The notes under the pieces: generated by a model
Seen by the model: the letters and a program-made list of their open reading frames with translations, nothing else
What the model was told of the DNA's origin: nothing
The model's database searches: none
NCBI GenBank assembly: GCA_021018995.1
Contig: CM037588.1
Coordinates: 152,353,725-152,417,724, forward strand
Length of the DNA: 64,000 nucleotides
Direction of reading: 5' to 3'
From: Chloranthus sessilifolius
Taxonomy: Eukaryota > Streptophyta > Magnoliopsida > Chloranthales > Chloranthaceae
In this document: positions 13,033-50,025 of the stretch, one piece after another
How positions within the stretch are numbered: position 1 is the first letter of the stretch
Layout of the letters: every line of letters begins with the position of its first letter
Position numbers and translations under genes: made by a program

Positions 13033-13377
13033 TCGATTAATCAAAATGGGAGTTCGATTAATCGATTTTGGCCAAGAAGTTGAAAAGTCATGGAAGCCAG
13101 ATTTCGATTAGTCGATTTGGAAATCGACTAATCGACTGAGAAGCTCCAGCCACTGGAGGAAAGTAACCTGGTGAAATCAACTAATCGAATTGGAATTTCG
13201 ATTAATCGATTTCAGATTTCGATTAATCGATTTGGGATCGATTTATCGATTTTGTGATTTCGATCACTCGATTTGAGAATCAACTCCATTAGGTTAGAGA
13301 CTTCGATTAATCAAATTTGAATTTTGATTAATCAATTTCGAGAATCAATTAATCGATTTTGGGAATCGATTAATTGA
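13033..13377 (+). repeat. Palindromic-word array in 3' LTR of A
   Basis: Shorter than the 5' LTR array (72-495) by a few words. Several words are eroded to TCAATTAATCGA, TTGATTAATCAA or TCGATTAATTGA. Confidence 0.9.
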
Positions 13378-30295: not shown

Positions 30296-30700
30296 TTAAT
30301 CATTGGTAGGCGGACCCATCCACCTCGGATCACTTAAATTGATATTCTTAGGCACAGGGAACAATTTCTCCCACAGATCAAGGGGAAATTGATGAGACAC
30401 CGCCGATTGTATGGGTGGAGGTGTGGAGACGAAAGTAGGAGATGAAGATGGGGGAGACGGTGACGGCATCACATCAATTATCTCGATATCAGTATTGACG
30501 CACGGTGTAGGAGATGTGGAGCGATTTACCTTTTTTCGAGATGGTTCTCCCCAGTAAGGAATGATCATCGGATCGAGGTCGATGATTTCAACATTGTTTG
30601 GCACAAAAGGGACCGTCCGATGAGAGCGGCGCTCCCGCTTTTTAGCAGTCTCCTCCATCTTTGATAATCGTGCTCTGGTGATGTATAATCGTCGGGCCAT
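30296..30700 (-). CDS. Small Pro/Ser-rich ORF of C, unknown
   Basis: 134 codons from ATG. A basic N-terminus (RLSKMEETAKKRERR) is followed by acidic repeats of the form VEIIDLDP and IEIIDVMP and a Pro/Ser-rich stretch. It ends at TAA. A palindromic-word array (30939-31185) lies about 240 bp upstream on the same strand. No domain is recognised. It may be the remnant of a larger element protein, and codon-level support is weak. Confidence 0.35.
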   Translation of the reverse strand: MARRLYITRARLSKMEETAKKRERRSHRTVPFVPNNVEIIDLDPMIIPYWGEPSRKKVNRSTSPTPCVNTDIEIIDVMPSPSPPSSSPTFVSTPPPIQSAVSHQFPLDLWEKLFPVPKNINLSDPRWMGPPTND

Positions 30701-30938
30701 AAGAAAGATTGTGCAGAGTTAATGAAAAGTGAGCCTAAAGGTGAATATAAAGGGAAAAAAATATAGAGTTGGAGTAGGAGTGGAAAGAGGTGTCCTGCAG
30801 AAAAGAAACAATGAAAAGTGTGGCAGTACGTCCAAGGGAGTCCACGGACGTGGGAAAAGAGGCAAATTAGAGTTCCAATAGGAGTGCCGTCGAAAAAAAC
30901 AAAAAAAAAAAAAAAAAAAAAAACGAAAAGCGGTGGGG

Positions 30939-30987
30939 TCGATTAATCGACCCTTAAAGGTCGATGCATCGACACCCAAAAATATTG

Positions 30988-31023
<36 letters not shown>

Positions 31024-31185
31024 GCAGCAGAGGGTCGATTAATCGATCCCAAAGGTCGATGCATCGACCCTTTGGGGGTCGATTCATCGACCTCCCAAAA
31101 AAAAAAAAAAATTTTTTTTTTTATTATTTTTATTTTTTTCGTAAAAAGTGGGTCGATTAATCGAGTATAACCCTCGATTAAGCGA
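30939..31185 (-). repeat. Word array in C, upstream of the small ORF
   Basis: TCGATTAATCGA, TCGATGCATCGA and TCGATTCATCGA words at 21-23 bp steps, interrupted by long poly-T and poly-A runs. Confidence 0.9.
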
Positions 31186-31358
31186 CACCATCTTGGCAGA
31201 GAGTTGGAAAATTGTGAAAATTGGCTTTTTAAAAGTGCGTTCCAACTACTCTAAAGGCAACCGGTAATTTGCAAAATTTTGACAATCCCACACAGATTAG
31301 AAAACACACTGTTTTATTGATAAAGACGATGATTACATGGACACATCTGATTTGACTC

Positions 31359-32643
31359 CTAAAATAAACAGTCTAAACAAAAGAAAGAAAAATAACACAA
31401 AACGAAAAATCCTAATCCTAGACTAATCAAACTAATCATCTCCATCCTCCTCGGCCTGGCGGGCCCTGGCGCGCATCTCATCATAACTATCAGGCCACAT
31501 ATGCTGCCCGTTCTGATGGAGGAAGGAACGATCATAGTGGCTACGGCGCAGGAGTGCACCATGTCGTCGCTGCTGCTCCTCTTGTAAAGAATGAATTTGG
31601 GCTTGGAGCGAACCAAGCGACACACCCTCCTCGGGTCCTTGATCAGGTGCATGTTGGTCATCCTGACGACGCTGACAATTGGCGTGGGGAGCCGGTTTGG
31701 TGCATCGAGGGCATCGTGGAGATTTCCAAGAGACGACATCTGCGGTTCCATTGGGACCACCATAACGATAGAAAGCAAGGTCCCGATATCATCATCCCGA
31801 GAACGGAAGCGAAGGAAATTAAGCAACTTCATAACATAATGGGGAAGTAGACCAACGGGCTTCACGATGGTAGGTTTAGCGAGTTCGTCATGGCCATACG
31901 CCATCATAAATGATCTTGAGCACGTTGATCCATGAATTGCGGTGGGCCCCATAAAGTGCTTGAACGCGATCACCGTGCGCCGTAAAGCGTGGCCGGGGAC
32001 AAAGATTGCTCTACCGACCACACTATCCCAAAACAAAAGCAAGCGGAACGCCGATCGCCTAGTGGCGATCCGAAGAAAATATGCCGCCAAGACATCTCGT
32101 TGATTATATCCTCCACGAGACTCGTCGAGTTCCTCACCCAGAATGTGATTGTGAGGGCGCCGCACGAAACATTAAAGACCTCCCAATGGTGTGCGGAAAA
32201 TCGGGCGACCACCCATCAATTGTAACAGTGAAGTGGGCGGCGACTTGATTCTCGATGGAGGCGGGCACCCATGCCATATTCTGATAGAATAACCGAACAA
32301 CGCGTTCGGACACTTTGATCATGGGTGGAGTGAGGAGAAAATGGGCATTGAGAGCCATCGCATAGGCGAGGGAAACGGCGCAGATAGGCAGTGCTTGAAA
32401 AGCCGCGAGATCAAAAACATATTCGGAACACAAGTCGCGGGTCGCGAAGCGACCACTTGGCTGATCACGTGGATGACCAGCAGGGCGTTGTACAAGTCTT
32501 CTTGCGGGCGGAAAGGTCGAAAACCATGATTGCTCGGAATGTGGAGGCGATCGAAAAACAAACTCAATCAAACTCGTAGTGAGAAACGTAGTGAGACTCC
32601 TCCATTTAAATAGGCGCAAAGGCGCCTCTCGGGACGGACACAA
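31359..32643 (-). pseudogene. Transposon-protein-like ORF of C, frameshifted
   Basis: Read on the - strand, three overlapping open frames follow one another (32643-32134, 32212-31970 and 32165-31359), so the gene is split by indels. It contains VVRLFYQNM and a following VTIDG segment, resembling LVRLFYQGL and TIEGRE of the extra ORF in A and B. Further on are LRIATRRSAFRLLLFWDS and RRTVIAFKHFMGP. I infer the same broad 'putative plant transposon protein' family. Sequence similarity is limited to a short core, so this needs a profile search. A word array lies immediately upstream (32653-33326). Confidence 0.5.
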
Positions 32644-32652
32644 TCGAAATAA

Positions 32653-33326
32653 TCGATTAATCGATCAAAAGTGTCGATTAATCGACCCTATTGAAAAGAG
32701 GCGCGTCAGAAGTCCCGACGCATGGAAAACACGCAACGTCTTTAAGTGAAAAGACGCAACGTACGGAAGTGGAAAAGTCGATTAATCGATGCACTTCATC
32801 GATTAATCGACAGAAAACGAGGCATAAAAAAACAAAAAAACGCATGCCCCGCAATAAAGGTCGATTAAGCGACTCACAAAGAATCGATTAATCGACATTA
32901 AATAAAAACAAAACTGACAAATTTTCAAGACAGCACAATTTTCAAAATGTGCAGTCGATGCATCGACTCAAGGAGTCGATTAATCGACTAAAAAAAAATC
33001 AAAAACCGTCATAAATGCAGTCTCCTTGAAAAAGGAGACTCCATAAATACTGTCGATTAATCGACCAAAAGGGTCGATTAATCGAGGTGAAGGGTCGATG
33101 CATCGACCCTGGTTGGGTCGATGAATCGACACAGCGGGTCGATGCATCGACTCCCAAAAGTTTTTTTTTTTTTTTTTTTTTTTTAAACATCGAAAAGAAA
33201 TTAACCAAAAATATAGACTGCATTGAAAAAGAAAACAGTCATTATGACTGTCGATCAATCGACTACAAGGAGTCGATTAATCGAGGGGGAGGGTCGATTA
33301 ATCGACATACACCGTCGATTAATCGA
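32653..33326 (-). repeat. Word array in C, upstream of the transposon-protein-like ORF
   Basis: TCGATTAATCGA, TCGATGCATCGA, TCGATGAATCGA and TCGATCAATCGA in short runs. Steps measured within runs are 21, 21, 23, 21 and 22, 21, 21 bp. Confidence 0.92.
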
Positions 33327-33457
33327 GGAAGAAAAATAATTTTTTTTTTTTTTTTTTTAAAGCGAAATTAATCTACAAGGTGTAAATTCACTCCGAGTCC
33401 ACCAGGATCCCAAATCTTCATGAAAAATTTTCTAAGTAGGATCAGCGATTTATTTAA

Positions 33458-34360
33458 TCATCTCGGTATTTCTCTTTTTGAGGACTTAGTTACACCCTCA
33501 TGGTGTGCCCAAGTGCCACCATTATGATCCATTTCTACCCTGTACTTGACATTCCCAAAATCACACTTCAGATTCAAACCCATGAATCTTTTTTCGGCAT
33601 TCTGTTGATTATCTATGTATTCAAAGAATGGGCAACAGATTTGAAATTCCTCTTTCTTCCCTAAACCGAATTCACACTCATCGAAAAAAGTTATGTTTCC
33701 CTTATTAGGTGTTGTAAGGGTGACATTTTCTTTCTCTTTCATCTCAATTTGATTCTCAACTCCCTCCTCGACATAAGTATCGTTCCATTCCATTTCCTCT
33801 TCTCCTCGCACTTGCACTACCTCAACGCTCGTTATGCCATTCTCAAGCATAGTGACCAATTGGTCATCCTCATATTTTTGAACAAAATCAGATGAGTCCT
33901 CTTGAAGATGTTCTTTATTCTGATCGGTAACAATGAGGGACTCCTCTATTTCAACTTTCCTTTGTAAGTACTCGATCATCTGACTAACTTGAGATTGTAT
34001 CCTAGAAATTCTTTGAGTATTGGTGTGCACCAAACCTTTTAAATATTCTGAGTAAGAAGAATTTTGGACTGGTTCATATGAGTTTGTGTCTTGAAAGTAT
34101 TGAGTTTGCTGTAAAAACTCATAAGGAAATTGGTTGGGATAAGAATTTTGATCATTGTACGGCATCATATCACACATTAGAGGTTGATTAAAATCCCACA
34201 TGTCATTAGATTGACTCTGCCAGTCATGAGTGTTCCAAACCGGATTTGGTTGGACTTGTTCAGGGTAATAATTTGAGTTATTCAAGGGACACATAGGTGA
34301 AATGTGCATCGAATTTCTACAAATAGCACATGATTTTAGATTGAATCCATACATTGACAT
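33458..34360 (-). CDS. Gag-like ORF of C with zinc knuckle
   Basis: 300 codons from the ATG at 34360. I chose this start because the longer open frame begins in poly-T. A CCHC knuckle, CAICRNSMHISPMC (C-x2-C-x4-H-x4-C, residues 11-24), is followed by an Asn/Gln/Tyr/Trp-rich stretch, as in the C-terminal half of Athila/Tat gag proteins. Next comes a coiled region around residues 105-150 and an acidic tail. The N-terminal capsid part of a normal gag is missing. It is the first ORF after the 5' LTR and is uninterrupted, so it may still be expressed. It could supply packaging or simply be a relic. Confidence 0.6.
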   Translation of the reverse strand: MSMYGFNLKSCAICRNSMHISPMCPLNNSNYYPEQVQPNPVWNTHDWQSQSNDMWDFNQPLMCDMMPYNDQNSYPNQFPYEFLQQTQYFQDTNSYEPVQNSSYSEYLKGLVHTNTQRISRIQSQVSQMIEYLQRKVEIEESLIVTDQNKEHLQEDSSDFVQKYEDDQLVTMLENGITSVEVVQVRGEEEMEWNDTYVEEGVENQIEMKEKENVTLTTPNKGNITFFDECEFGLGKKEEFQICCPFFEYIDNQQNAEKRFMGLNLKCDFGNVKYRVEMDHNGGTWAHHEGVTKSSKREIPR

Positions 34361-34404
34361 GATTTCACTAAAAATTTTTTTTTTTTTTTTTTTTTTTAAT
34401 AAAT

Positions 34405-34573
34405 TCGATTGATCGAGTGTGACTCGATCAATCGAGGCAAGGTCGATGCATCGACTCAAAAAAAATTTTTTTTTTTTTAAATTTTTTTTTTTTTTTTTAA
34501 ATTCGATTGATCGAGTCACACTCGATCAATCGAGGCAAGGTCGATGCATCGACAATGGGGGTCGATGCATCGA
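34405..34573 (-). repeat. Word array in C, upstream of the gag-like ORF
   Basis: TCGATTGATCGA and TCGATCAATCGA pairs followed by TCGATGCATCGA, in two near-copies of about 105 bp separated by poly-T. Confidence 0.9.
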
Positions 34574-34692
34574 CTCCCAGCAAAAAATTTTTTTTTTTTT
34601 TTTTTTTTTTTAATTAAGCAGAAATACTATTTTAATCCTCGAAAATTCCTAAAATTTATTGTCTACCAAAAATTCAGATTTTCTTAATTTAA

Positions 34693-34710
34693 TCCCCGAC
34701 AACGGCGCCA
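34693..34710 (-). other. Primer binding site of C (Asp tRNA)
   Basis: On the + strand TCCCCGACAACGGCGCCA. This matches the 3' end of plant Asp tRNA except one base (A for G). It lies six bases from the LTR. Confidence 0.8.
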
Positions 34711-34716
34711 AAAACT

Positions 34717-36532
34717 TGTTGTAATATTTTTAATGTAATGTTTTACTCGCAAGTGCACGAATCGGTTTGAATATAGTGGGTACGGAGTACGAGATCGTTC
34801 CCACGAGGATTAATGTTGAAACATCTAAAAGAGACAAGCAATTCTAGAAACCTATTAAGATTTAACAGTATTCTACCAGTTTTATGATTTAAGCTGTTGA
34901 TGATAATTAATGACTACAAACTGAAATTCAATTTGATAATTCAAAAATAAAAGTGAAGATGATGATAAAGATGAAGATACTAAATCCTCCCATCTTTGGT
35001 CCGTTCTTCCTATAATATAAATCTAAGGATTAAATTATGAGATATTTCATTGGTAACAAACATCTTTTATGAAAGATCAATGGTCAACACCCTAATAGGT
35101 TCCACGTTGCATCCCTACAATCAGGACTTAGATGATTTTCATATATATAGATCTGGGATCAAGGGCACGGCTAGGCACGCATGATCTCAGGTTCAAATAA
35201 AAATCATCCCCAAAGTGGGTAAAAATTCCAACAAGAATACCACTTACAAATCTGAAATCAAGGGCATGGCTCGGCACACTTTATTCAGATTAGGGATTAT
35301 TTAAGATAAAATTACCATTACATAACCAAGATCCAGGGCATGGCTCGGCACACTCGATCCCAGAACATAATCGTAATTAGATCCACATGATAAAAGCAAA
35401 AAGACCATAACAATGATTGGGTAAAATTACCGTCACAGATCTGAGATCCTGCATGACTAAGACACGCGATCCCGGTTAGTGGCGGGGATTTCATCCATTC
35501 ATGATAGCACAACAACCATAAAAATAAAATCTCATATTTTAATCCTAAATTTATATTATTAAAAGTACATCCCTCGGATGGGAATCATTAGATCCCCATC
35601 CCTATAAATTTAGCCACACATATTGTAAGGAATTGACATAAATAAATAAAGACGGGAAAATAACATTAATTAAAATTACCTCAAACTTCAAAATAAATTA
35701 CGTTGATCCACACGGATGATAATCTTCAGAAACAAAATAAATGCAGGAATAAACTTTGAACAAAATTTATGAACTGAAGGAATGAGTACTGAAAAATTAA
35801 AGGGAACAAAGCTCTTAAAAAGAAATAATAAACTTCCCTATTTCTAGGTCTAACTATGAAAAATAATGGCTAAAAACTAAGAACACTAAAAACTAAAACT
35901 CTAATTCTAATCTCCTACGTTATTCTAATGCTGAAAAGATCTCCTCTCCGAAGTGTTTGAGTCGCTTTAAATAAACCCCGTCGCGCGGAAGTCTCCCAAG
36001 CCGACTTTTCCGGGTTGATTAATCGACCAATGGATGTCGATGCATCGAGCCGACCAAGAGTCCCAAAAAATAGACTTTTAGTGTCAGATTCGTGTCAGAC
36101 TGAAATTCTGGCTCGATTAATCGACCTGTAGGGTCGATGCATCGACCCCAGAAATCCGTGAAATTCAGCACTTTCTTGTGGTTCAAACACTGCTTCGGTA
36201 TTTCGGCCATAACTTTCTATCCCGAACTCGGATTGAGACGATTCGTGCGCCGTTGGAAAGCTGACGAAAAGATCTACAACTTTCATGTTTTGCCAATTTT
36301 GTAATTCGGCCGTCTTGAAGGTCCAAATTTAGCCGCAAGTCGCACCAAGTTCTTGATTACCCGAAGTTGCAGTGTTTTGGCATTATATTCAGAATTCTTG
36401 TACTGTTTTCTATACTTGGCTTGTATTTACCTGAAACACTTCAAATCTAATCAATCTTATCAGATAGCCTTCATCGGATAGCTAAATATAGGTATTTAGG
36501 GGTGAAATATCCTCATTTTTCAGTACTCATCA
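34717..36532 (-). repeat. 5' LTR of C
   Basis: 1816 bp, nearly identical to 26431-28249. A short damaged patch near 35447-35462 differs from the other copy by clustered indels. Confidence 0.92.
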
Positions 36533-36537
36533 GCCAG

Positions 36538-37418
36538 TGCGGAGGCTTATCCGTACACAGTAAGCACACCCCAGGGGTGTTGAATTGAGATAAGTGAAAC
36601 CCCGCCACAAATCCCCAGGGGAAAGGGGCTTGGGTACTATATTTGTATTCCCAGGAAATACGTTAAAAGTATCTATATAGATGACAATAAAGGGTATCTC
36701 ATCTGGGCTCGATGCTATATTGCTCGGGGATTACTTAAGTTGAAAGTTTAAGTTTTGCTTTAGGCCTTTTCAGCATCATTCATGAGTAAATGAAAACATA
36801 AGTAATCAACAATAAAGAAATGCTTTTTTAACTGTTTTCATCAATAACTGCATAGACACATCATGCATGGCATATCATGGAATATATGTGAGTAATAATT
36901 TATATGTTCAACTGTGTTTGTTCCTTATTGAGCTAGGATGTAGCTCACCCTATAGACTATATGTCGCAGGTCCACTACTAGCAGCTGCCGAGGCTTCAGG
37001 AGACGCTAACCCCGGTGAGTCGGACCTTGCGGCCGGTGAAGAGTTGGAGCCACCTCCTGAGGACTTCTTCTAGAGGACTCCGTTGTGCCACTTTGAGGGC
37101 TTTTTGAGAGAGTTTTGTACGGCTTGGTATGTCAAGCTTTGATTTTGTTTAAACCATGTATATAAGGAGTTGGGATTATTCTTTTGGGACGAACCATCCG
37201 TGATGATTGCTATCATCGATGGTTCGGATCGGTTCTCCATTCATGCAGAGGCATGAGGGTAGAACTGTCTTTTGGGGAGTTGCTTAGTATAGATTTAAAT
37301 TCTGAAATTTCATTTATTATTCTATTGCATGCTTGATATACCAGTGTTCCGTGCTTAGCTAAGGGGCATGGTCAAGATGATCGTGCTGATGGCACGGGTT
37401 TGAGTGCCAAATCCGAAC
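36538..37418 (+). repeat. 5' LTR of B, right part
   Basis: Continues the LTR after C. It holds a CCCC-A-GGGG palindrome near 36570 and the 35-codon block at 36969-37073. The last ~40 bases and the primer site are altered compared with the 3' LTR, leaving only TATCAGAGC (37429-37437) of the Met primer site. Confidence 0.85.
36969..37073 (+). other. Conserved 35-codon open block (B, 5' copy)
   Basis: GPLLAAAEASGD to ELEPPPEDFF plus TAG. Identical to 47781-47885 except one substitution (Asn for Asp). Confidence 0.5.
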
Positions 37419-37514
37419 ATCGATTAATTATCAGAGCTATTTTCTTTTAGCAATTCTGACAATAATTCTTTGGTCAGAACATAGGGGCTTCTGCTAACGA
37501 AACTTTAGTTTCAA

Positions 37515-38877
37515 ATGCAGCCGCAAATGTCATCTAGAGGAAGAGGTCGACCAAGGGGAGGCCAACAGAGGAGTCTACGTAGTGGAGATGATTACATCTC
37601 TCCTACAAATAGAGTGCCTTTAAGAGGTACTGATGCCCCAGGGGGCAGTAGTAGTAGACAGCATAATGAAGAGGATCGAGATCGGCAGGATCAAGATCTA
37701 AGAGAACAAGAGAGAGTGAGAGAAAGACAAGAAGATAGAGAGGAGCGACAAAGGATGATGCACACTATGGAGACTATGGCAGCTGCCATGGCACAACAAG
37801 CCGCATCCTTCTGACTCATGCGTCGAAGAACGACCACCTACACCACCACTAGGACTGCGTTCTGTCCTCATCTTTTCTGAAATTTAGGAGGATGAGACCT
37901 CCTTCATTTTACAATGGCGACACAGAACCTGATGGAGAAAGTCTTTAGCGTGCTAACTTGCACGGAAGATGAAAGTGTGAGATGGGCAGCTTATCTGTTG
38001 GATGGGGAGGCTGGGCCTTGGTGGAAGTCCGTGATACGGACTCGGGTTCAAGAGACCCCAGAGTTGCCTTGGACTTGGGAGGAGTTTGTTGAGGAGTTCA
38101 ACAAACAATATTTTTCGGAAGTGGTGAGGAACCAGCTTGAGATACAATTTCTACAGTTAGTGCAAGGGAGGATGATAGTGAGAGAATATGGGGTGGAGTT
38201 TCTACGACTTGCCCGTTTTGCTCCGGATTACGTCGCTACTGAAGTGATGAAGTCCAAGAGGTTTCAGCAAGGTTTGAAGCCTGAAGTTAGGGGAGGCGTA
38301 GCTCCATTTCAGCTGAGGACCTATGAAGAGGTCATGAGTAAGGCATTGGTTGTGGAAGAAGAAAATACAAATAGATATAGACAGAGAGAGCAACAGAGAG
38401 GAGGAAATGAACAAGGAAGGATGGGGACCTATGAACCGGTGAACAAAAAGTCGAGGTTCGTAGCCCAAAATCAGAGACCACAGTTCCAAGGGGGTTTCGG
38501 AAGACCGGCGCAACAACAACAACACCAACAGAGGTTTCCATTACTTGCGTCGGGGAGACCTTTTCGCTATGAGAGCCCTGCCATGTCTACTGGCGCCACT
38601 GTCACACAGGGTTCTCGTACTGTTTCTTCCACACCTCGGGAGACTTGCGCAAAGTGTGGCAAGCCTCATAGGACGGTGGATTGTAGATTAGGAACTAGGG
38701 GTTGTTTCCGATGTGGCAAGGTGGGCCACTTGATCAAGGATTGCCCCGAGACGGATAAGAGAAAGACGGTTTCAGTTACAGCACCACGACCCATTCAAGC
38801 AAGGAAGCCGATCGTTCAGGGGAGAGCCTATGCAGTCACTGCTCAGGAAGCAGGGAACATGCATGACATCATCCAAG
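37515..38877 (+). pseudogene. gag of element B, broken
   Basis: ATG at 37515, R/G-rich then acidic N-terminus to 37815, a frameshifted patch at 37800-37912, then an open run (37914-38891) with RWAAYLLDGEAGPWW, MIVREYGVEFLRLARFAP, a Gln-rich linker and a zinc knuckle CFRCGKVGHLIKDC. Compared with A, a piece encoding about nine residues (VAEHWLSE..) is missing before MEKVFSVL. The distal part is inside a 289-bp tandem duplication (38677-39254). Confidence 0.85.
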
Positions 38878-39254
38878 GTGACACTCGTTAAAATTAAAGA
38901 AAATTTCATTTCATTTAAAATTTTAGATAGAGAAGGAGCATGCATTAGAAATTGTATAGATTCTTTGGATTGTAGATTGGGAACTAGGGGTTGTTTTCGA
39001 TGTGGCAAGGTGGGCCACTTGATCAAGGATTGCCCCGAGACGGATAAGAGAAAGACGGTTTCAGTTACAGCACCACGACCCATTCAAGCAAGGAAGCCGA
39101 TCGTTCATGGGAGAGCCTATGCAGTCACTGCTCAGGAAGCAGGGAACGTGCATGACATCATCCAAGGTGAGACTCGTTAAAATTAAAGAAAATTTCATTT
39201 CATTTAAAATTTTAGATAGAGAAGGAGCATGCATTAGAAATTGTATAGATTCTT
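38677..39254 (+). repeat. 289-bp tandem duplication across the gag end and intron start
   Basis: Two copies (38677-38965 and 38966-39254) with very few differences. Each holds a zinc knuckle, the gag C-terminus, the donor CAAG|GTGA and about 85 bp of the candidate intron. The locus therefore has two donors (38878, GTGACA; 39167, GTGAGA) for one acceptor. Confidence 0.95.
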
Positions 39255-39334
39255 TTCTCAAGACAAAGAGCTGTATGTGAATTAAGAGTGTAAATTGATG
39301 TGTAAATTATTGTATGTATGTATGTATACTATAG
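39167..39334 (+). other. Candidate gag-protease intron of B
   Basis: Donor CAAG|GTGAGA and acceptor ACTATAG|GTAC join ..IIQ to GTLNIYEKG in frame, as in A. The upstream donor at 38878 would give a 457-base intron that skips the second zinc knuckle. Confidence 0.55.
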
Positions 39335-39834
39335 GTACTTTAAACATATATGAAAAAGGATGCTTCGGTGGATATGACGCTCGAGTGTTGATAGACCCAG
39401 GGTCTACCCACTCATTCGTCACTCCACGTTTCGCCAAGAAGATGAAGATTGTTCCAGAGACATTGGATTTCGTCCTAAGCATGTCTATTCCATTTGGAGA
39501 GTTAGTAGACACGGAGTTAACTTGCAAATCCATCATTAGATTCGAGACTTAGAGGTGCATGAATTAGAAGCAAAGTTGATATTGTTAGACATGCGGGGTT
39601 TGATGTGATCCTTGGCATGGTGGTTGGACATTATTACATGCCCGTCGATTTGCAAGAACAAAGGTAGTCATTTTCGGACCCAACACAAGAAGATCATTTC
39701 GGTTTCAAGGAGTGAGGTCGTCATCCGTGCCCTTGATCTCGTGATGAAGGGCGAAAATAATCGAAAGGTTGCGATGGATACTTAGCTTTCTTAAAGGAGG
39801 ACAAGGAAGAAAAAACGTCATTTACGAGATAGCG
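39335..39834 (+). pseudogene. Protease region of B, broken
   Basis: VLIDPGSTHSFVTPRF is the active-site segment, with Asp-Pro-Gly in place of the usual Asp-Ser/Thr-Gly. The frame is lost at 39550. From there to about 39830 there are many one- and two-base indels relative to A (for example in the VILGIDWL region). Confidence 0.8.
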
Positions 39835-40740
39835 GTTATGTCGAGACTTCTGCGGCGTGTTTCAACGAATTGCCTGGATTACCTCCAGAAAGAAAAGTAG
39901 AATTCGCCATTGACTTAGCACCAGGAACGGAGCCTATTTTGAAAGCACCTTATAGAATGGCTCCTGCTGAGTTAAAGGAGTTGAAGGAACAACTTCTGAA
40001 CTTATGGACCGAGGTTTGGTTAGACCGAGTGTGTCTCCATGGGGAGCACCTGTCTTGTTTGTCAAGAAGAAGGATGGGTCAATGCGACTATGCATTGACT
40101 ATCGACAATTGAACAAACTCACTGTGAAGAACCGTTACCCTTTGCCTAGAATTGACGATCTATTCGACCAATTGCAAGGAGCAAGGTATTTTTCCAAGAT
40201 CGACCTGAGATCTGGGTATCATCGATTCTTGAGTCAAATGAGGACATTCAAGGAAGCGACTTTTGGACACGATATGGACGCTATGAATTCCTTGTGATGC
40301 CGTTTGGATTGACGAATGCTCCGGCGTCGTTTATGGATCTGATGAACCGAGTGTTTAAACCACACTTGGACTCCTGCGTCATAGTGTTTGTTGATGATAT
40401 ACTGATATACTCCAAATCCAAGACGGAACACGAAGAACATTTGAGGATTGCTCTACAGACGCTATGTGAACACCAATTGTACGCCAAACTCAGCAAGTGT
40501 GAGTTTTGGTTGGAAGAGGTTAGCTTTTTGGGACATGTTGTCTCAAAGCATGGTGTCACGGTAGATCCAGCAAAGATAGAAGCAGTAGTTAAATGGGAGC
40601 AACCAAAAGGCGTGTGGAGATGTCCAAAATTTTCTAGGCTTAGCAGGCTATTATCGACGTTTCGTCGAGGGGTTTTCAAAGATATCAGGACCTCTCACAA
40701 AGCTGACACGAAAAGACTCAAGGTTTGAGTGGAGTGAGGC
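39835..40740 (+). pseudogene. Reverse transcriptase of B, broken
   Basis: All main motifs are present in separate frames: [69 protein letters not shown], catalytic FVDDILIYS and [15 protein letters not shown]. Indels near 40005, 40230 and 40615 break the frame. Confidence 0.9.
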
Positions 40741-42732
40741 ATGCGAGAAGAGTTTTCAAGAACTCAAAACGAAACTCACTTCGGCTCCAGTGCTAGCGAT
40801 TCCTTCTGGCAGTGGAGGATATGCCGTACTGACGTCATACAAATGGCCTTGGTTGTGTGCTCAACCAACACAAGAAGGTGATAGCTACGGATCAAGACAA
40901 ATTTGAAAGAACACGAGAAAAATTACCCGACTCATGACTTGGAACTAGCAGCAGTCATTTTTGCGCTGAAGATTTGGAGACATTACTTGTATGGTGAGAC
41001 TTTTGAAATTTTCACCGATCATAAGAGCCTTCGGTATCTCTTTACACAGAAAGAACTCAACATGAGACAGCGCAGGTGGATGGAATTCCTTAAGGATTAC
41101 GATTGCTCCATACAATACCATCCAGGCAAGGCGAATGTAGTAGCCGACGCATTGAGTCGGAAAGGTTCAGCTCAGTTAGCTTGTTTGATTTTGGGTATGC
41201 ACCGATGGAAATTATTGGAAGACCTGGCATTCTACGATGCGAACATTGAGTCAAAAGCCACCGGATCCTTTTTGGCTAACATATCAGTAAAGCCAGTGAT
41301 ATTTGAGCATATCCACGATCTACAGATGAAAGATCCGACATTAATAAAGATTCATCAAGACGTGAGTGAAAGCATCAGGTCGGACTTCTCGGTTAAAGAA
41401 GATGGTTCTTTATTGTTTAAGGGCCGTCTATGCATTCCGGACAATGCCGATCTAAGACGAACGATTCTTGATGAAGCCCATAAGTCAAATTATGCTATCC
41501 ACCCTGGTAGCACCAAAATGTACCAAGATTTGAAAAAGAACTACTGGTGGAGAGGACTGAAGCAAGACGTGGCCGAGTACGTGTCACGGTGTTTAACTTG
41601 TCAACAAGTGAAGGTTGATCATAGACATCCTGCTGGACTATTGCAACCTTTACCAATCCCAGAATGGAAGTGGGAATCAATCTCAATGGACTTCATTGTT
41701 GGATTACCCCGTACTGCCAAGAGATACAATGCCATTTGGGTCGTCGTAGACCGATTGACCAAATCAACGCACTTTTTGGCGTACAATACTACGTATACGG
41801 CAGGAAGACTGGCAGACTTATACATGAAGGAGATCATAAGATTACATGGGATTCCAAGCAGCATAGTTTCAGATCGTGATCCACTATATACGTCCAAGTT
41901 TTGGAAGAAATTTCAAGAAGGAATGGGAACACGACTAGACTTTAGTTCAGCTTTCCATCCTCAAACTGATGGGCAGACAGAGCAAGTGAACCAAGTAATA
42001 GAAGACATGCTCAGAGCGTGCATGCTTGATATGCAAGGATACTGGGATGAGTATCTACCGATGCTCGAGTTCGCATACAACAACAGTTTCCAAACGAGCA
42101 TTGGCATGGCACCGTATGAAGCTCTGTATGGACGACGATGCAAGTCACCCCTCAATTGGGAGGAGACAGGTGAGAAATTTGTGTTAGGACCAAAACTACT
42201 TGAAGATAACGCTACCATCGTTCGAATAATCAGAGAGAGGCTGAAGTCAGCACAGAGTAGACAGAAAAGTTACGCCGACATGAAGCGGACTAGTGTCGAC
42301 TATAAAGTGGGTGAGCACGTGTTTGTGAAAGTGTCACCTATGAAAGGTGTAATGAGATTTGGTAAAAGAGGGAAGTTAAGTCCACGTTATGTTGGACCAT
42401 TCGAAATTTTGGGACGCGTAGGTGAAGTTGCATATCGCATTGGTTTACCACCGCTATTTGATCGAGTACATAACGTGTTCCACATATCGATGCTCAGAAA
42501 GTACGTGAATGATCCGTCTCATGTATTAGGAAAGCAACCTATAGAGATGTGTGAGGACATGAGCATGATAGAGGAACCAGTGGAAATCTTGGATCGAAAG
42601 GAACAAGTACTGCGCACTAAAGTGATTCCCTTAGTGCTTGTTCGGTGGAACAATCATCCAAAAGAAGAGGCTACTTGGGAACGAGAGGCCGATGTGAAAG
42701 AACAATATCCAGCCTTGTTTCCAACGACGTGA
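40741..42732 (+). CDS. RNase H, integrase and chromodomain-like tail of B
   Basis: The first part of RNase H is frameshifted at 40820-40905. From 40903 a 609-codon frame is open: the rest of RNase H ([27 protein letters not shown]), the HHCC finger (H..H near 41476-41500, C-x2-C near 41590), the DD-E core (Asp in [10 protein letters not shown], Asp in [12 protein letters not shown], Glu in QVIEDMLRA), the GPY/F region ([14 protein letters not shown]) and the tail [24 protein letters not shown]. All catalytic residues are present. Alone it cannot be made as an enzyme because the upstream pol frame is broken. Confidence 0.92.
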
Positions 42733-42944
42733 GAATTCAATGTAAACCACAAACGTGTTTGTGGAATCTCCACTATACTTGTAATTCAATGGAAATTTTG
42801 ATCCAATCTGATTTAAGGAACAAATTTATATGTACATGATCAAGTGTATGCAACTCTATGGAACTATGAACCACTTGAGGTCATAAACTACCAAAAGAAA
42901 TCAAAGAACCAAAGAAATAGAAAATCTGCAGAAATTGGACAAAA

Positions 42945-43705
42945 TCGATTAATCGAATTTCAAATCGATTAATCGATTTGGAATTTCGACTAATCGATTT
43001 TGTTCGATTAGTCGACTGGCATGTGCCAGTGACTGGAAAATTGAATAGGGGTTAGAATATACATAGAATGCAATTTCGATTGATCGAGTTATAATTTCGA
43101 TTAATCGATTTGGGATCGATTAATCAATTTTGGGAATTCGATTAATCGAATTGGGAATTCGATTAATCGAACTGCAAGTCGATTAATCGAACGAGCTGGG
43201 AATGTTAGAACAATTGGGAGTAAATTAATAAAATTTCGATTAATCGAAGCAGTATCGATTAATCGATTTTGGATTTCGATTAATCAAACTGGACCTCGAT
43301 TAATCGATTTACTAAAGGGAATTGGAAGAAATTGGAGTCAGATAGACGATTTCGATTAATCGAAGTGAATTTCGATTAATCGATTTTGAAATTTCGATTA
43401 ATCGAAATGGATTTCGATTAATCGAATACTTAAGGAATTCTGGAAATTTAGAAGTTACTGCACGATTTTGATTAATCGAAGTGAAATTCGATTAATCGAA
43501 ATGGATTTCGATTAATCGACTGGCTCGCGCCAGTGAGCTCAAAAACTTAAATTTTTAAACGGATACGATTTCGATTAATCGAAATGTTTTCGATTAATCG
43601 AAGTTAACTTTCGATTGATCGATTTGAGAAATCGATTAATCGATTTTGCGCGGTTTAACCTAGTTTTGAATTTCGATTAATCGAATCAGAATTTCGATTA
43701 ATCGA
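42945..43705 (+). repeat. Palindromic-word array upstream of the extra ORF of B
   Basis: By eye, 27 words in about 760 bp: 20 exact TCGATTAATCGA and 7 with one change. Thirteen neighbouring steps measured as 20, 21, 18, 19, 22, 21, 20, 19, 21, 20, 20, 22 and 20 bp, mean about 20. Spacer sequences differ. The array ends nine bases before a TATA-like box. Confidence 0.95.
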
Positions 43706-43713
43706 GCCGAGGC

Positions 43714-43726
43714 CTATATATATAAA
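43714..43726 (+). promoter_or_regulatory. TATA-like box for the extra ORF of B
   Basis: CTATATATATAAA directly after the word array and 219 bp before the ATG. The leader contains CTAGGGTTGGG and TAAACCCTAAA, typical plant leader motifs. Position and surroundings match A. Confidence 0.5.
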
Positions 43727-43944
43727 ATTGGGGATTTCATTTCCCATTCGAAATCATTTTTTGCTTGGGGATTTTGGGCGCTTCACCTTCTTCTTCTTCT
43801 TCTCCGACCATCCGGCGCTCTAGGGTTGGGTTTTGCCGTCGATTCGCTTCCGCAATCGCATCCAAAACCACGGTAAACCCTAAATTTGTGTTTTTCCCTT
43901 CAATTTGAGTTAGAGAAACCCTAGTTTAAGCTTATTTCACCACC

Positions 43945-45468
43945 ATGCCGCCCAAAACCCGGTTGTCTTCGAAGAAGGCAACCTCTAAGTTGCCGGTTAG
44001 GCGTAAGAACGCCACACCACCACCACCTACCCCATTGCCGGTGAGGACTCTGTCACCGTCGGCATCGGAGACCACCTCCGGTTCGACGAGCGCATCCTCA
44101 CGCGAGTCTTCCTGCGAATCAACCCCAATGCCCCCACCACCCACTAACGTGGTGCAACCAAACGAATGGTGGGCGGCCAAGACCTTTGAGGTCGAATATA
44201 TTATCGACCCTACCCTATTCACAAATCCCGATTTGCCGGGCGAGACCCAATGGGCTCGAAATGACCTCAACAACGTCGGTCTCGGCAACCTTCTCAAACC
44301 AATCCGGGGTTCCTACTACCCTAGGTTGGTTAGATTATTTTACCAAGGGCTTGTGGACGGCCCTACCGACGACGTGATTAAGACCACCATAGAGGGTCGG
44401 GAGTACATAATCACCCGTCGCCACATACACGAGGTACTCGAGTGTTACCTCGATTTCACCCCAGAGACCACCCTATTCCCACCCTTCGAGGAGGACCCTC
44501 GATTTGAGGAGGTCATGACCCCCATGACCAATGGCAAGAAGGGGTCGGGCTCCTTCATCAAGAGGGTTGACCTTCCCCACTACATGTGGATGCTTGATTC
44601 AATAATTAAGTGTAACTTATACCCAATGCGCCACGATACGGAGCGCGTGGACAAAGTGCAACAGGCACTTTATGCGGCCTTCTGTGGCCGATGGTTTGAT
44701 GCTACCATGGTCATCCTAGAAGGGATGAGGTACATCAAAGGAAAGCTGATGAAGGGCAACATGCGGCCCAAGGAGAAGATGCCATATGCTCGGCTCATCT
44801 CGAGCATGTTGGAGTGTTACTCCAATGATCCCTCCTACAGCATCTCGCCTCACGAGGTGAGGGCTACGGATCGCGTGAAGACGTTTTCGAAGTCTTCATG
44901 GACCCGTAGCTACAATTTATTAAAGCGGACCCTACCGGCTCCGGGTCCCGCTCCGGTAGCAGCAGCAGCAGTAGCACCGCCACCACCCCCACCACCTCAG
45001 CAGGACCCACCCGTGGGTGGGGCACACCCTATCCCCGCTGAGCCATCCGTGGAGAGGGCTCCCTCTCACACCGCAGCCTCACCGACGCCACCTGCCCACT
45101 CCGCGCCCGCGACACCCACCTCATCCTACCGCCGGCGCGCCGCATCATCTGGGCCGACCATCGAGGAGGTGTTGGCCCGTATGGAGGCCAACAACGAAAG
45201 GATGAACCAGAGGATGGACTTCCTCCTCTTTCACACCCTCCGCCACATCTATCCTACCGACTACCGCCGCTACCTCGCCCAGGAGGAGGAGTGGACCGCC
45301 GGACGCACAGCCTTCCACAGAGGACCCGTCTTCCATCCCACCACTGCAGACGCGGCGCCTTCGACATCTACCTCCGCTCACGATCGAGACGCCAGCAGCC
45401 ACGACCACCACCCGGCCACCACAGCCGCCACCATGCAGTACGCTCCCAGAGACACACCGGCTCTGTAG
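43945..45468 (+). CDS. Extra ORF of B (putative plant transposon protein-like), intact
   Basis: 507 codons from an ATG in a good context (CACCATGCCG) to TAG. Residues 1-70 are basic and Ser/Pro-rich. About 70-320 form the conserved core with PNEWWAAKTFEVE, RGSYYPRLVRLFYQGL, EGREYIITRRHIHEVLE, VDLPHYMWMLDSIIKCNLYP, ALYAAFCGRWFDATMV and GMRYIKGKLMKGN. About 335-400 is a Pro/Ala-rich linker. A helical IEEVLARMEANNERMNQRMD segment and a His/Ser-rich tail follow. The core matches what I know as the plant 'putative plant transposon protein' family; its function is unknown. It has its own TATA-like box and word array, and is the only full-length element gene left open in B besides integrase. Confidence 0.75.
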   Translation: MPPKTRLSSKKATSKLPVRRKNATPPPPTPLPVRTLSPSASETTSGSTSASSRESSCESTPMPPPPTNVVQPNEWWAAKTFEVEYIIDPTLFTNPDLPGETQWARNDLNNVGLGNLLKPIRGSYYPRLVRLFYQGLVDGPTDDVIKTTIEGREYIITRRHIHEVLECYLDFTPETTLFPPFEEDPRFEEVMTPMTNGKKGSGSFIKRVDLPHYMWMLDSIIKCNLYPMRHDTERVDKVQQALYAAFCGRWFDATMVILEGMRYIKGKLMKGNMRPKEKMPYARLISSMLECYSNDPSYSISPHEVRATDRVKTFSKSSWTRSYNLLKRTLPAPGPAPVAAAAVAPPPPPPPQQDPPVGGAHPIPAEPSVERAPSHTAASPTPPAHSAPATPTSSYRRRAASSGPTIEEVLARMEANNERMNQRMDFLLFHTLRHIYPTDYRRYLAQEEEWTAGRTAFHRGPVFHPTTADAAPSTSTSAHDRDASSHDHHPATTAATMQYAPRDTPAL

Positions 45469-45777
45469 CACCGACTGAGGGAATTGAGTGTCGTTATTTT
45501 GTATCAGTCATGATTTTGTACATGTATATTTTTGTATGCTAACTTATTGGCGTTTTGTAAAAATTTTCTGATATTAATAGAAAATCTAAATTTTTGTGTT
45601 AATTGTTTGCTTTCGTAAAAAAAAAAAAATTTGAATTCCATGCTTGTGTTGTGAATGCTTAAGTACGTCTGAGTCAACTGGACCACCTCACCTGAGAGTG
45701 TGGGGGGGGGGGGGAGAGAACCAGCCAGACAAACCTTGGGTTATTTTCGAGGACAAAAATTCCCAAGGTGGGGAGGA
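45469..45777 (+). other. 3' untranslated end, poly-G and polypurine tract of B
   Basis: Contains a run of 13 G (45702-45714) and the polypurine tract AAGGTGGGGAGGA (45765-45777) that abuts the 3' LTR. No gene. Confidence 0.8.
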
Positions 45778-46346
45778 TGTAATAGCCCAAAAAATCACGC
45801 TAAACTATGACCTCGGGATTCGTGCCCGATCGGTCACAGATTTGACCAATTAGGAGTTTGATAGTTAGTGTAGAGTGTGATGAGTGAATGTGATGTGATG
45901 GGTTGTGTAGCCATGTGGTGTGTGTTAAAAATCTAAAGTCACATACACCTACTGAGGTGCATGTGCTCAACACACAAGCTAGGGGGGGGGAGATAAAAGG
46001 GTTTAATAGCCCTAAAATCAAGAGTTTGGTGGTTGAGAGAGAAGTAAAGAAGAGAGAGAGAAGAGTAAAGAGAGTGATTTATACAAGGAGTAAATGCTAG
46101 TTGAAGAAGGGAGATTCGAGCAAGAAACGTCGGATTCGACGCGAGGGATCCGCTAGAAGCAAAGCTGGAACCCTAGCCTTCCAACCACTTGATTTGAAAT
46201 CAATTTGAGATTGATTCAAGGTAAATTTTTGTGAATAAAATGCATAGATCGTAGAGGCTAAATTGTAGTTGAAAATGGTTTAAATCATAGGATAATGGTT
46301 TAGAAAAATAGAGGAAAAAGTGTGGAAAAAGATTTTGAATCCGACA

Positions 46347-46781
46347 ATTCGATTCGAAATTGGGTTTCATTAATCGAAATTGGCCAGGAAGTTGAAAAGT
46401 CAGAGGACCTCGATTTCGATTAATCGAATTGGAGTTCGATTAATCGACTTTGGATTTCGATTAATCGATTTGGGTATCGATTAATCGACTGGGAACCTCC
46501 AGTGGACCCAAGGGGGGCTGGAGGAAATGATTTGGGAAAATCGACTAATCGAAATGGGATTTCGATTAATCGATTTCAATTTTCGATTAATCGATTTGGG
46601 ATCGATTAATCGATTTTAGGAACTCGATTGCTCGAATTGAGAATCGACTTGGCTGAACAGAGAATTTCGATTAATCGAATTAGAATTCAATTAATCGAAT
46701 GAGAATCTCGATTAATCGATTTGAGAATCGATTAATCGATATTGACTTTCGATTAATCGATTTTGGAGTTCGATTAATCGA
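46347..46781 (+). repeat. Palindromic-word array in 3' LTR of B
   Basis: Consecutive steps in its main runs are 20, 21, 20 then 21, 21, 19, 22, 20 then 20, 21, 20, 21, 21 bp. Confidence 0.95.
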
Positions 46782-47780
46782 CTGAGATAAATTATGTTGA
46801 CCTTTGAGTTTGACTTTAAGATTCTTTGAGGGTTTTAGACCTTCTTTATTGCATCCTTTGTGATGTGTTTCACCTGTTATGTGGTACCATAGGTGGTACG
46901 TGCAAACTAATGCACAAGGAGTCACGTGGGACCTTGGTGCAATGATCAAATGAAGACTTGAGGTAGAGAATACCTTGAACATGTACTTTATTTTACAAGA
47001 GCATGTATGTAGTGATATAGAATTCAATTCAAATGTTTTATTGCTTAAGAATTGTGAAAAGTGTGTGTGCGTGTGACATCCATAAGAGTAATTATAATGA
47101 GCCATACCCAGGGGATAAAGAAGTAAAGAGATGAGAGCATCAGGTGTGATGCAAGTGAATGGATACATCCCAGAGATGTATCCAAGATTGAATCATGTTT
47201 GATAGGGCCTAACTGATATAAGATAGCACACTTACACGGTGAATAACTATATGTAAGGCACCGATATTTTTGTTATTTGAGGTTTGATAGCGTGGCGGGA
47301 TATCCACGGACCCGACACACGGCGGGATATCCAAGTAACCCGTCTGGCGAAATCGTAGGCCGGTCACGGAGGCTTATCCAGACACGATAAGCACACCCGT
47401 GGGTGTTGAATTGAGATAAGTGAAACCCCGCCACCAATCCCCAGGGGAAAGGGGCTTGGGTACTATATTTGTATTCCCAGGGAATACGTTAAAAGTGTCT
47501 ATATAGATGACGATGAAGGGTATCTCATCGGGGCTCGATGCTATATTGCTCGGGGATTACTTAAGTTGAAAGTTTAAGTTTTGCTTTAGGCCTTTTCAGC
47601 ATCATTCATGAGTAAATAAAAACATAAGTAATCAACAGTAAAGAAATGCTTTTTTAACTGTTTTCATCAATAACTGCATAGACACATCATGGAATATATG
47701 TGAGTAATAATTTATATGTTCAACTGTGTTTGTTCCCTATTGAGCTAGGATGTAGCTCACCCTATAGACTATACGTCGCA

Positions 47781-47885
47781 GGTCCACTACTAGCAGCTGC
47801 CGAGGCTTCAGGAGACGCTGACCCCGGTGAGTCGGACCTTGCGGCCGGTGAAGAGTTGGAGCCACCTCCTGAGGACTTCTTCTAG
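47781..47885 (+). other. Conserved 35-codon open block (B, 3' copy)
   Basis: Same frame and length as the other four copies. Ends GEELEPPPEDFF plus TAG. Confidence 0.5.
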
Positions 47886-48240
47886 AGGACTCCGTTGTGC
47901 CACTTTGAGGGCTTTTTGAGAGAGTTTTGTACGGCTTGGTATGTCAAGCTTTGATTTTGCTTAAACCATGTATATAAGGAGTTGGGATTATTCTTTTGGG
48001 ACGAACCATCCGTGATGATTGCTATCATCGATGGTTCGGATCGGTTCTCCATTCATGCAGAGGCATGAGGGTAGAACTGTCTTTTGGGGAGTTGCTTAGT
48101 ATAGATTTAAATTCTGAAATTTCATTTATTATTCTATTGCATGCTTGATATACCAGTGTTCCGTGCTTAGCTAAGGGGCATGGTCAAGATGATCGTGCTG
48201 ATGGCACAGGTTTCGGGGTGCCGAAATCTGGGCTGTCACA

Positions 48241-50025
48241 GTATGTATGAATGTGTGTACGGATAGGCCGCCGTACCGGCCCAAAGGATGCAGTCAAAGA
48301 ATCCAAAGGATTCATAATGCAAATGCAAATGTCAAAAGTCCAAGCGTCGTTGAGTAAATCACAGTTCCAAGGGTGTCAAAATGATTCACGAGTGCCACCA
48401 GCGATCTCAAGATCTTACTTTCAAAACACGAGTCAAGCTCAACAATATCAAAGGTTATCTAGAATTGAACATTATCACATGCATAATCACGATTTCACGA
48501 GTTTATATTCCAAATCATAAGACTCCACTTCTAATATATTCAACTCCGATCAACTCATCATATTCATGCAAACACATCTAATACTATGAATCAAGTCAAA
48601 TCTATAAATTTAAGTCGAGTTTTCCCTACCTTAATCTTGAGGTTGCGCGAAGCCAAGCAAGGTCCTAACCATGGCCTTCCGCCTCAATCTATATCACAAG
48701 CACACAATGGTGCATCAAAGATCAACTCTACTCACTAATAAATTATATGCATTTAAGTATTTTCTCAAAACCAAGGTTGAAACGGATAAATTCATGCTAA
48801 TATAGAATTTGATATAATATTCTCCTTAAATTTTAACCTTTAAAACTTTAGATTTATAAGTTAGTCAAAACAAAAAAGTTATAGATCTCGTCGTCCTCTT
48901 TCCAACGCCATAAGAATCGCATCAATCGAAGTTCGGGGTAAAAAGTTACGGCCAAACTACTGAAGCAGTAGCGGCGAGCCCAGTCAAAATCGTTCAAACG
49001 ATTTACAATCGATCGAACGGTTTCTAATTTTGTTTGAACGATTTTCAAAATCGATTGAACGGTTTCTAATTTCGTTCGAATGATTTTCAAAATCGATCGA
49101 ACAGTTTCTAATTTCGTTCGAACGGTTTTCAAAACCGATCGAACGTTTCCAAACCGACCAGAAACCTTCAGATTTCACTCTTGACGAAATCGTTCGATCG
49201 ATTTTTAATTTCGATCGAACGGTTTCATCAGATTTCACCCAAAACTAATTTTGTTCAAACGGTTTTCAAAACCGATCGAACGGTTTCGTCAGATTTCACC
49301 CAAAATCGGCTTCAAGCATTTAACTCATTTTTTCTTTAAATCTTAACCCATTTTCTTCAAATCTCCCACTCATAATCTAACTAAGGATTAATCTACATAC
49401 AAATCACAACTTAAATCAAAATTTTTACCTTTAATCCAACGATTTTCTCCTCGATCGAATCGTCTTCTTTCTAGCAAGCAAATGGGTTTCCAAACCCCTT
49501 TTGATCTTTCCAAGCTCCACGATTTTTACAATTTCGACACGATCATTAGGTGATCATCCACACACACTTCGTACAATCCTCACTACGATTTAATCGATCA
49601 AAACACACCATTCTCTTTGCAAGAAAAATGGGTTTTCAAAACCCACATCGATCTACTATGAGCTCCACGCACAGGATCAAGCCAACACAATCGTAGACAA
49701 TTCTTCACAAAAACCCTTATATTTTCTTTCTTTCTCTCTCTAACTCACAAAAACTCACAAATCTTTGCAACCGGTTATGGCTTATAAATGAAGCCCTTCC
49801 CTCTCTTGTACTTAAAAGCCCGGTTCACGTGTAAAACACATACACGCCACAACAGGTGTATAAGACCCTATAGAATGATCTAACACCATACGGGTGTGCA
49901 CTTTTCACACCAAAGTTAATCCAATCTAAGTCATCAAGTTGACTTTTACCTGCTCAAAATTAATAACCTGACGGGCACATGTCCCGAGGCACACTATTCA
50001 AAGTCCAAATTTTTGAGATGTTACA
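48241..50025 (-). repeat. Solo LTR D, second half
   Basis: Continues D after the B insertion. No coding region. Holds the word array at 48988-49290 and a CT-rich leader near 49720-49750. Confidence 0.88.
48988..49290 (-). repeat. 21-bp-pitch TTCGAAC-core array in LTR D
   Basis: Cores TCGAAC, TTGAAC or TCAAAC (one TCGAAT) start at 48994, 49013, 49034, 49055, 49076, 49097, 49118 and 49139: one step of 19 and then six steps of exactly 21 bp. Two further pairs, 49194/49215 and 49255/49276, are also exactly 21 bp apart. Flanks alternate between AATCGA and TTTCGT types. Confidence 0.95.

Follow-up and report, generated by a model that had tools for sequence, protein, structure and literature searches.

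What is the role of a row of 12-bp palindromes, set about two helical turns apart, in front of an open reading frame (ORF) of a plant retrotransposon? The question is raised by a stretch of 64,000 nucleotides from Chloranthus sessilifolius (contig CM037588.1, positions 152,353,725 to 152,417,724, forward strand), referred to here as the window, in which the word TCGATTAATCGA forms a dense array (INT_B) inside a Ty3/gypsy element that we call B. The comparisons described below indicate that this is, very probably, a selected array of binding sites.

The word scan found 27 non-overlapping words in about 760 bp, each with at most one mismatch and 20 of them exact, exactly as the initial annotation had counted by eye; the whole window holds 174 matches with at most two mismatches, against 4.15 expected from shuffles. 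That annotation gave the neighbour steps as 18–22 bp, which is true of 20 out of 26, and omitted six longer gaps of 41, 54, 56, 57, 63, and 72. It further placed the end of the array nine bases before a TATA-like box followed by a 507-codon ORF; this was borne out, and the promoter-proximal position of the array is supported. The ORF itself, described as belonging to a retrotransposon, is neither gag nor pol but an accessory ORF (aORF) of the Ty3/gypsy element with a weak match to PF20167. Finally, a single array had been reported, whereas element B has an array in each long terminal repeat (LTR) besides the internal one.

The assignment of B to Ty3/gypsy is based on the order of its domains: Retrotrans_gag (PF03732) and Ty3_capsid, then integrase after RNase H, followed by SH3_Tf2-1. 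A chromodomain-like match (PF00385) stands at the expected integrase C terminus (E 2.2e-05), its 24.7 bits being just under the cut-off of 25.1. The element is flanked by a target site duplication (TSD), GTATG, read by eye at 24805–24809 and 48241–48245, and its 5' LTR is interrupted by another element, E. Going by its long LTRs and layout, B may belong to the Tekay/Del chromovirus lineage. At the left end of the window lies element A, with the same parts as B in diverged form; it has an internal array (INT_A), upstream of a broken aORF beginning at 10651, and contains a solo LTR, C. The internal arrays of A and B share their gap pattern (18-72, later 57, and finally 63-19-21-21-41-21). Taken together, the seven arrays (both LTRs of A, both LTRs of B, solo LTR C, and the two internal ones) comprise 130 words at no more than three mismatches, 80 of them exact.

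Between lineages, the words diverge by 3–11% and the spacers mostly by 20–45%. INT_A and INT_B differ at 13 of 252 word positions, 91 of 352 spacer positions, and 152 of 439 flanking positions (words versus spacers, Fisher 3e-12; here and below, the tests take sites as independent, and the p values are indicative). For the LTR arrays the differences in words and spacers are 13/204 versus 68/219 (A5 with B5), 11/192 versus 57/212 (A5 with C), 8/192 versus 57/223 (B5 with C), and 16/151 versus 63/188 (A3 with B3). The two LTRs of one insertion serve as a control, because they diverge only after insertion. Within such pairs the words are not spared (18/304 in words, 13/374 in spacers, 133/2846 outside), and the word–spacer difference is not significant for the A pair (12/156 versus 6/189) or the B pair (7/199 versus 12/231). 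When only positions were kept at which both A LTRs agree and both B LTRs agree, so that the differences had been fixed before insertion, we counted 4/135 in words, 53/174 in spacers, and 271/1297 outside (words versus spacers, 4e-11); all four fixed word changes fall in the centre, at positions 5–8. Since the words are spared between lineages yet not within LTR pairs, they are kept by selection during replication of the elements. The word-versus-spacer test was repeated under differing definitions of the word columns. Comparisons with copies elsewhere in the genome (L016, L017, and L027) agree in 11 of 12 cases at p<0.05 and in 10 of 12 at <1e-4. L017 against C reached p of only 0.03; L016 does not differ from its close relative A3 in this respect (20/168 versus 130/1497, p 0.2), and the L016 rows are weak, their spacer span being stretched by a stray word at position 2109.

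The constraint is unevenly distributed within the word. The 130 words give 520 cells for each class of letters, of which 1 is changed for T1, A4, T9, and A12, 28 for the centre letters 5–8, and 33 for the CpG positions; in these counts the LTR pairs are not independent, and solo LTR C was left in its own orientation. Because the arm letters are nearly invariant and the centre and CpG letters vary, the unit in the A/B family is TCGA-N4-TCGA. The main words have dyad symmetry, which is suggestive of a dimer bound to duplex DNA. Of the altered words in A, B, and C, just 3 of 50 are perfect palindromes. A second motif, CTGGC(4)GCCAGTG, occurs twice in the internal array of B (43016–43031 and 43520–43535), each time behind a word that opens a long gap, and recurs in A with one letter changed; its LTR counterpart in B, CTGGGAACCTCCA, near 46489 and 25548, likewise stands behind such a word.

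Table 1. Features of the window, with word counts for the arrays
Feature	Position	Strand	Words (exact)	Basis
Element B, Ty3/gypsy, carries INT_B	24810..48240	+		self-comparison; ends by eye; Pfam
B 5' LTR array	25404..25838	.	17 (12)	word scan
B gag ORF (Retrotrans_gag, CCHC zinc knuckle)	37914..38891	+		ORF list, Pfam
B pol end (RNase H, integrase, SH3_Tf2-1, chromodomain-like end)	40903..42732	+		ORF list, Pfam
Focal array INT_B, word TCGATTAATCGA	42945..43705	.	27 (20)	word scan
TATA-like box TATATATATAAAA, 9 bases past last INT_B word	43715..43727	+		by eye, alignment
aORF of B, 507 codons	43945..45468	+		ORF list, Pfam, dN/dS
B 3' LTR	45778..48240	+		ends by eye
B 3' LTR array	46366..46781	.	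16 (12)	word scan
A 5' LTR array	72..495	.	17 (8)	word scan
Solo LTR C, inside A	about 4528-7056	-		TSD TTGAC by eye; self-comparison
Solo LTR C array	6015..6471	.	18 (13)	word scan
Internal array INT_A	9779..10404	.	22 (12)	word scan
A 3' LTR array	13033..13377	.	13 (3)	word scan
Element E	26431..36532	-		TSD GCCAG; LTRs 98% identical
E LTR word clusters	27732-27862, 36015-36145			word scan
E internal word clusters	30939-31185, 32653-33326, 34405-34573			word scan
Array F, other TCGA-containing word TCGTTCGAACGA / TCGATCGAACGG	48990..49283	.		repeat scan, by eye

The word and its spacing are not confined to the window. In the 2.17-Gb assembly, the exact word occurs 241,617 times, against 55 for a control of the same letters reversed and likewise palindromic; the corresponding numbers for TCGACCGGTCGA, a word of the relatives described below, are 3,173 and 33. 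Of 20 systematic 10-kb samples of the genome, three contain exact words, 45 in all. The initial annotation expected a genome-wide peak of steps near 20–21 bp, and the samples agree: among 99 neighbour steps shorter than 200 bp, 70 measure 19–22 bp and 50 measure 20–21 bp, in a two-mismatch scan that also picks up the TCGA-centred words of L026. On contig 1, 86 of the steps among the first 100 exact words listed are shorter than 200 bp; 37 of these are 19–21, and the other recurring values are 41 and 71 (five each), 63 (four), and 50, 84, and 115 (three each). Within clusters, the step lengths agree with the proposal that all sites lie on a single face of the helix; across the longer gaps, however, the arrays keep phase no better than versions in which the gaps were jittered (six arrays, p 0.20–0.88), and helical phasing over the entire array is not supported. 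A scan of IMG/VR gave no spaced word pairs; a scan of bacteria and archaea gave three contigs (L002–L004) with one spaced pair each, judged unrelated, the pair in L002 standing before a tRNA-like sequence (by eye).

The arrays have relatives with other words. A search of the 20 samples with the aORF matched five (L017, L019, L023, L025, and L027). L017 (79–88% identical) and L027 (67%) have TTAA-centred words upstream of the aORF, and L017 has a second array in its LTR. In L019, where the aORF is 38% identical (E 8e-77), there are 19 TCGACCGGTCGA-like words at up to three mismatches, one of them exact; 1.6 were expected, and 50 shuffles gave at most 5. Of the 19, nine lie between pol (end by eye) and the aORF, and the other ten are found close to an LTR-like leader; the steps are mostly 19–21 bp. 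The ten form a second array, at an LTR-like place, that is preceded by a leader and a donor-like sequence. A sixth sample, L026, with a pol 71% like that of B, carries TCGATCGATCGA-like words in two places, the second 3.4 kb before the pol match, where a putative 5' LTR would be expected; in its continuation, L033, the aORF is 47% and 38% identical in two pieces, and the array ends 8 bases before TATATATATA. L034, chosen for its richness in TCGACCGGTCGA, has an aORF that is 34% identical; between it and pol stand the words TCGACCGATCGA, TCGACCGGTCGA, and TCGACCGATCGA, and this internal array ends 11 bases before TATATAAATA. Each of the two direct repeats of L034, which are 83% identical over 331 positions, has further words. 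Thus the centres of the word among related families of one genome are TTAA, TCGA, and CCGG/CCGA, and the same layout of array, 8–11 bases, TATA-like box, and aORF is seen in B, A, L033, and L034; B and A also have TATATATA in common, in A 8 bases past the last word. Since L019, L026/L033, and L034 keep place and step and carry other words, location and step are constant and the word changes with the family. In L035 (1–7001), CCGG-type words adjoin a stretch 77% like E, and no aORF match was found in that sequence.

The aORF has a weak Pfam match to PF20167 (Transposase_32; 32.6 bits, below the cut-off of 45) and another to PF19321 at E 0.06. Its dN/dS against two pieces of the A copy is 0.18 (238 codons) and 0.17 (204 codons), and it is under purifying selection. 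No homolog at E 0.001 was found in a set of 5.8 billion proteins (7989 candidates scored), a result of little weight, the plant content of the set being unchecked. A match to residues 413–469 of the aORF in the IMG/VR sequence L001 (38%, E 1e-4) was judged from its ORFs and word counts to be due to chance, and no relative of the integrase was found in IMG/VR.

The second location of the words has its own surroundings. LTRs that reach far enough show a TATA-like ATAAAAGGG or ATATAAGGG (AAAAAGGG in solo LTR C), a GA-rich leader, a donor-like GGTAA, the array, and an acceptor-like CGCAGGTCC. In the 3' LTR of B, ATAAAAGGG (45993–46001) and GGTAAAT (46220) stand before the array and CGCAGGTCC (about 47780) after it. 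Because TATA- and donor-like signals precede the LTR array and an acceptor-like signal follows, the array probably lies in a leader intron, downstream of a predicted start site.

How could such words act? We propose that they are cis-acting sites for a sequence-specific, probably dimeric protein, and that the array is the DNA-binding-site block of a control module that serves both LTR and aORF promoter, with the aORF product as its reader; we put this reading as a whole a little short of an even chance. Each element would carry the module at two sites, one in the LTR and one directly against the aORF's TATA box. The aORF product, or a complex containing it, would bind the words of its own family and thereby activate the LTR transcript and the aORF promoter alike, or protect them from silencing, a self-reinforcing loop that would favour copies with a matching word. 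An element-encoded reader explains the changed word more easily, because all families share the same host factors. A row of selected words in related elements, altered by family, suggests a private switch for each family, and each may read its word with its own protein.

The main rival makes the words sites of a plant transcription factor, making the array a cell- or stress-specific promoter or enhancer box with no reader encoded by the element, as has been suggested for the repeated motifs of Sireviruses; we lean against it, but it is a serious possibility. The same evidence of selection and layout fits it, E has the same word 39–40 bases before TATA-like sequences in its LTR and at 32653 (by eye), and the palindromes of Sireviruses matched mainly stress-related PLACE sites (PMC2829016). 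However, related families in a single genome share the layout and have different words, which would call for several host factors or a permissive one. We consider it improbable that the array is instead a silencer or boundary, its CpG-dense palindromes recruiting CG methylation or a repressor or blocking spreading. The CpG observed/expected ratio is 2.65–3.1 in four arrays of the family (3.1 in INT_B) against 0.84 in the window, and word CpG positions changed after insertion in the manner expected of methylated CpG (10/52, against 2/104 at other word positions, in the LTR pair of A; 4/65 against 3/134 in the pair of B). Still, the arm letters outside CpG are also fixed in the A/B family, and a silencing tag of the host would be selected against: because selection acts during replication of the element, the words must help the element.

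Two further explanations concern the RNA and the origin of the repeat. Words that fold or pair in genomic RNA, for dimerisation, packaging, or as decoy double-stranded RNA, seem to us very improbable. Folding of the array transcript is much stronger than that of 20 shuffled versions (z -13.1), a direct consequence of the palindromic words, and two word pairs in E make perfect hairpins; but sense changes show no clear G-U bias (22 wobble-tolerated versus 17 wobble-breaking, 101 words), the 20–21-bp steps and the place beside a TATA box indicate duplex DNA, and pairing alone does not predict the variable centres beside constant arms that are seen in the A/B family. Least credible of all is a neutral tandem repeat, a slippage-born filler with words that look conserved through recent copying. 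The initial annotation had argued from conserved words and unconserved spacers for selection and against slippage. Selection stands, yet the spacers keep traces of repeat ancestry: within each of six arrays their mutual likeness exceeds that in every one of 1000 shuffles, and a 116-bp higher-order repeat spans part of the focal array, so that the spacers are in part the degenerate copies of a longer repeat that the same annotation had named as evidence to the contrary. Given this weak likeness, the array was born and grew by duplication, after which the words were held and the spacers drifted. As the whole story, a neutral repeat is refuted when lineages are compared with LTR pairs: the words differ about 4–6 times less than the spacers between lineages, unlike a simple tandem repeat, this sparing is gone after insertion, and copying would have homogenised the spacers as well.

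Several observations weigh against a reader encoded by the aORF. Pfam recognised no DNA-binding domain in it, and its structure model is unusable (mean pLDDT 34). E uses the same TTAA word though its aORF is at best a very distant relative of that of B, which would fit a host factor, a shared factor, or a hitchhiker. In the LTR, the likely start site apparently precedes the array, and in L019 no clear TATA box follows the array. Strict arms are seen only in the A/B family: T1 is missing in 10 of the 19 words of L019 and A4 in 4 of 13 words of L033. L034 was picked for its word, no more than three words of its internal array are clear, and it has seven copies of TCGACCGATCGA, an imperfect palindrome, against five of TCGACCGGTCGA, so that the argument for a dimer is weakened there. 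Finally, in L023 (aORF 35% and 28%) and L025 (28%), no 8-mer is repeated four or more times in the upstream stretches scanned (1,259 and 1,820 bases, respectively).

Closest in layout among published systems are the Sireviruses (Ty1/copia; PMC2829016), with palindromes both in the LTR and upstream of an extra 3' ORF. The paper reports 8–32 motifs per element, placed in the LTR and, solely in elements with an extra ENV ORF, in the linker as well (77 of 79 of the latter upstream of ENV), CpG-rich clusters with the LTR TATA box shortly after them, absence from classic retrotransposons, and a core CGG-CCG, except in Tnd-1 (ACAATCGATTGT). At least eight copies are also present here (27 internal and 16 and 17 LTR words in B; 22 internal and 17 and 13 LTR words in A). 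In contrast, the present carriers are Ty3/gypsy by gag and pol domains, the core is TCGA-N4-TCGA, with CCGG just as a centre in L019 and L034, and it is the TATA box of the aORF that the array touches, the LTR array being apparently downstream of the LTR TATA box. Regular 21-bp steps and a test of selection are not described in the excerpts of PMC2829016.

In its proposed working, the module is closest to the anti-silencing system of Arabidopsis formed by VANDAL transposons and their VANC proteins (PMC5735166 and PMC10398659): motif repeats of 8–9 bases that differ by family are read by an element-encoded protein, with binding shown by ChIP-seq and EMSA. Likewise, an accessory protein under selection is encoded here, and motif repeats differ between related families in one genome; moreover, the unrelated element AT9TSD1 bears the VANC6 motif much as E shares the word of B. 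VANDALs are, however, another class of transposon than an LTR retrotransposon, binding is only predicted in our case, and Pfam gives just the weak PF20167 and PF19321 matches for the aORF; palindromes are nowhere mentioned in the text of PMC5735166. It is a tentative suggestion, and one that may well fail, that the PF20167-like aORF product is a counterpart of VANC and that word and protein co-diversify, dividing the Ty3/gypsy elements of a single genome into several non-cross-reacting regulatory groups.

Accessory ORFs of this kind have been described in sunflower (PMC11728184 and PMC7264820). Athila elements there have sense ORFs between pol and the 3' LTR, one of which, 487 aa long, matches PF20167 (Transposase_32) in part and has a predicted nuclear signal, whereas the Tekay aORF lies on the 5' side and matched no known domain. 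The position and the partial match are shared by the aORF of B, which differs in belonging to a chromodomain-type element and in having its own TATA-like box and array. For Grande, a title listed in PMC11963269 announces a 3' internal accessory gene for a nuclear protein with its own promoter; PMC7264820 lists the gene as antisense, and the available parts of both papers mention no palindrome array. We did not find the present arrangement in Ty3/gypsy elements in the open-access literature, subscription papers being excluded.

The function of sense aORFs in plant Ty3/gypsy elements is unsettled in the cited literature, and the arrays give them a candidate partner: a 12-bp palindrome under measurable selection, present in two places per element and in a family-specific form. 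If the aORF product reads the word, LTR retrotransposons would have independently reached self-specific activation or anti-silencing, and the way protein and word vary together would offer a recognition code to be deciphered. Should a host factor be the reader instead, that factor would face a very large sink of about 240,000 exact sites.

Element E, the second carrier of the word in the window, has TCGATTAATCGA and TCGATGCATCGA in five clusters (27732–36145). The latter, its second commonest word (10 of 35), is also a perfect palindrome, and the half-changed forms TCGATTCATCGA and TCGATGAATCGA are rare (one each); further one-sided changes are TCGATCAATCGA (three), TCGATTGATCGA and TCGATTAAGCGA (two each), and TTGATTAATCGA (one). 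At 34405–34435 and 34503–34533, neighbouring TCGATTGATCGA and TCGATCAATCGA make two perfect inverted repeats with 14-bp stems and 3-base loops, GTG in one and CAC in the other. From a primer-binding-site-like sequence, E is presumably Athila-like. Pfam found nothing under E 0.09 in six broken ORF pieces of E; one aORF piece of 176 aa matches the aORF of B by BLASTP at E 0.005 (hhalign probability 17), and a second piece has no BLASTP match to it.

Array F, built on another TCGA-containing word with mostly 21-bp steps (12 places at no more than four mismatches), lies in a minus-strand stretch that by eye resembles a related LTR into which B inserted. A segment GGCC(A/G)TAACTTT...CCGAACT...GTTGGAAAG stands behind the word array in both E (27920–28010) and F (48900–48960), on the minus strand (by eye); its presence in otherwise different elements hints at an exchange of modules. 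Beside the 5' end of B, at 24343–24791, lies a complex tandem repeat of CCAAGGGTGTTCAATG-like units, perhaps part of the same stretch as F. In addition, the gag region of B contains a 289-bp stretch in tandem duplicate (38677–39255, 98% identity), and the right side of the window holds an ATXR3-like gene with a GYF_ATXR3 domain.
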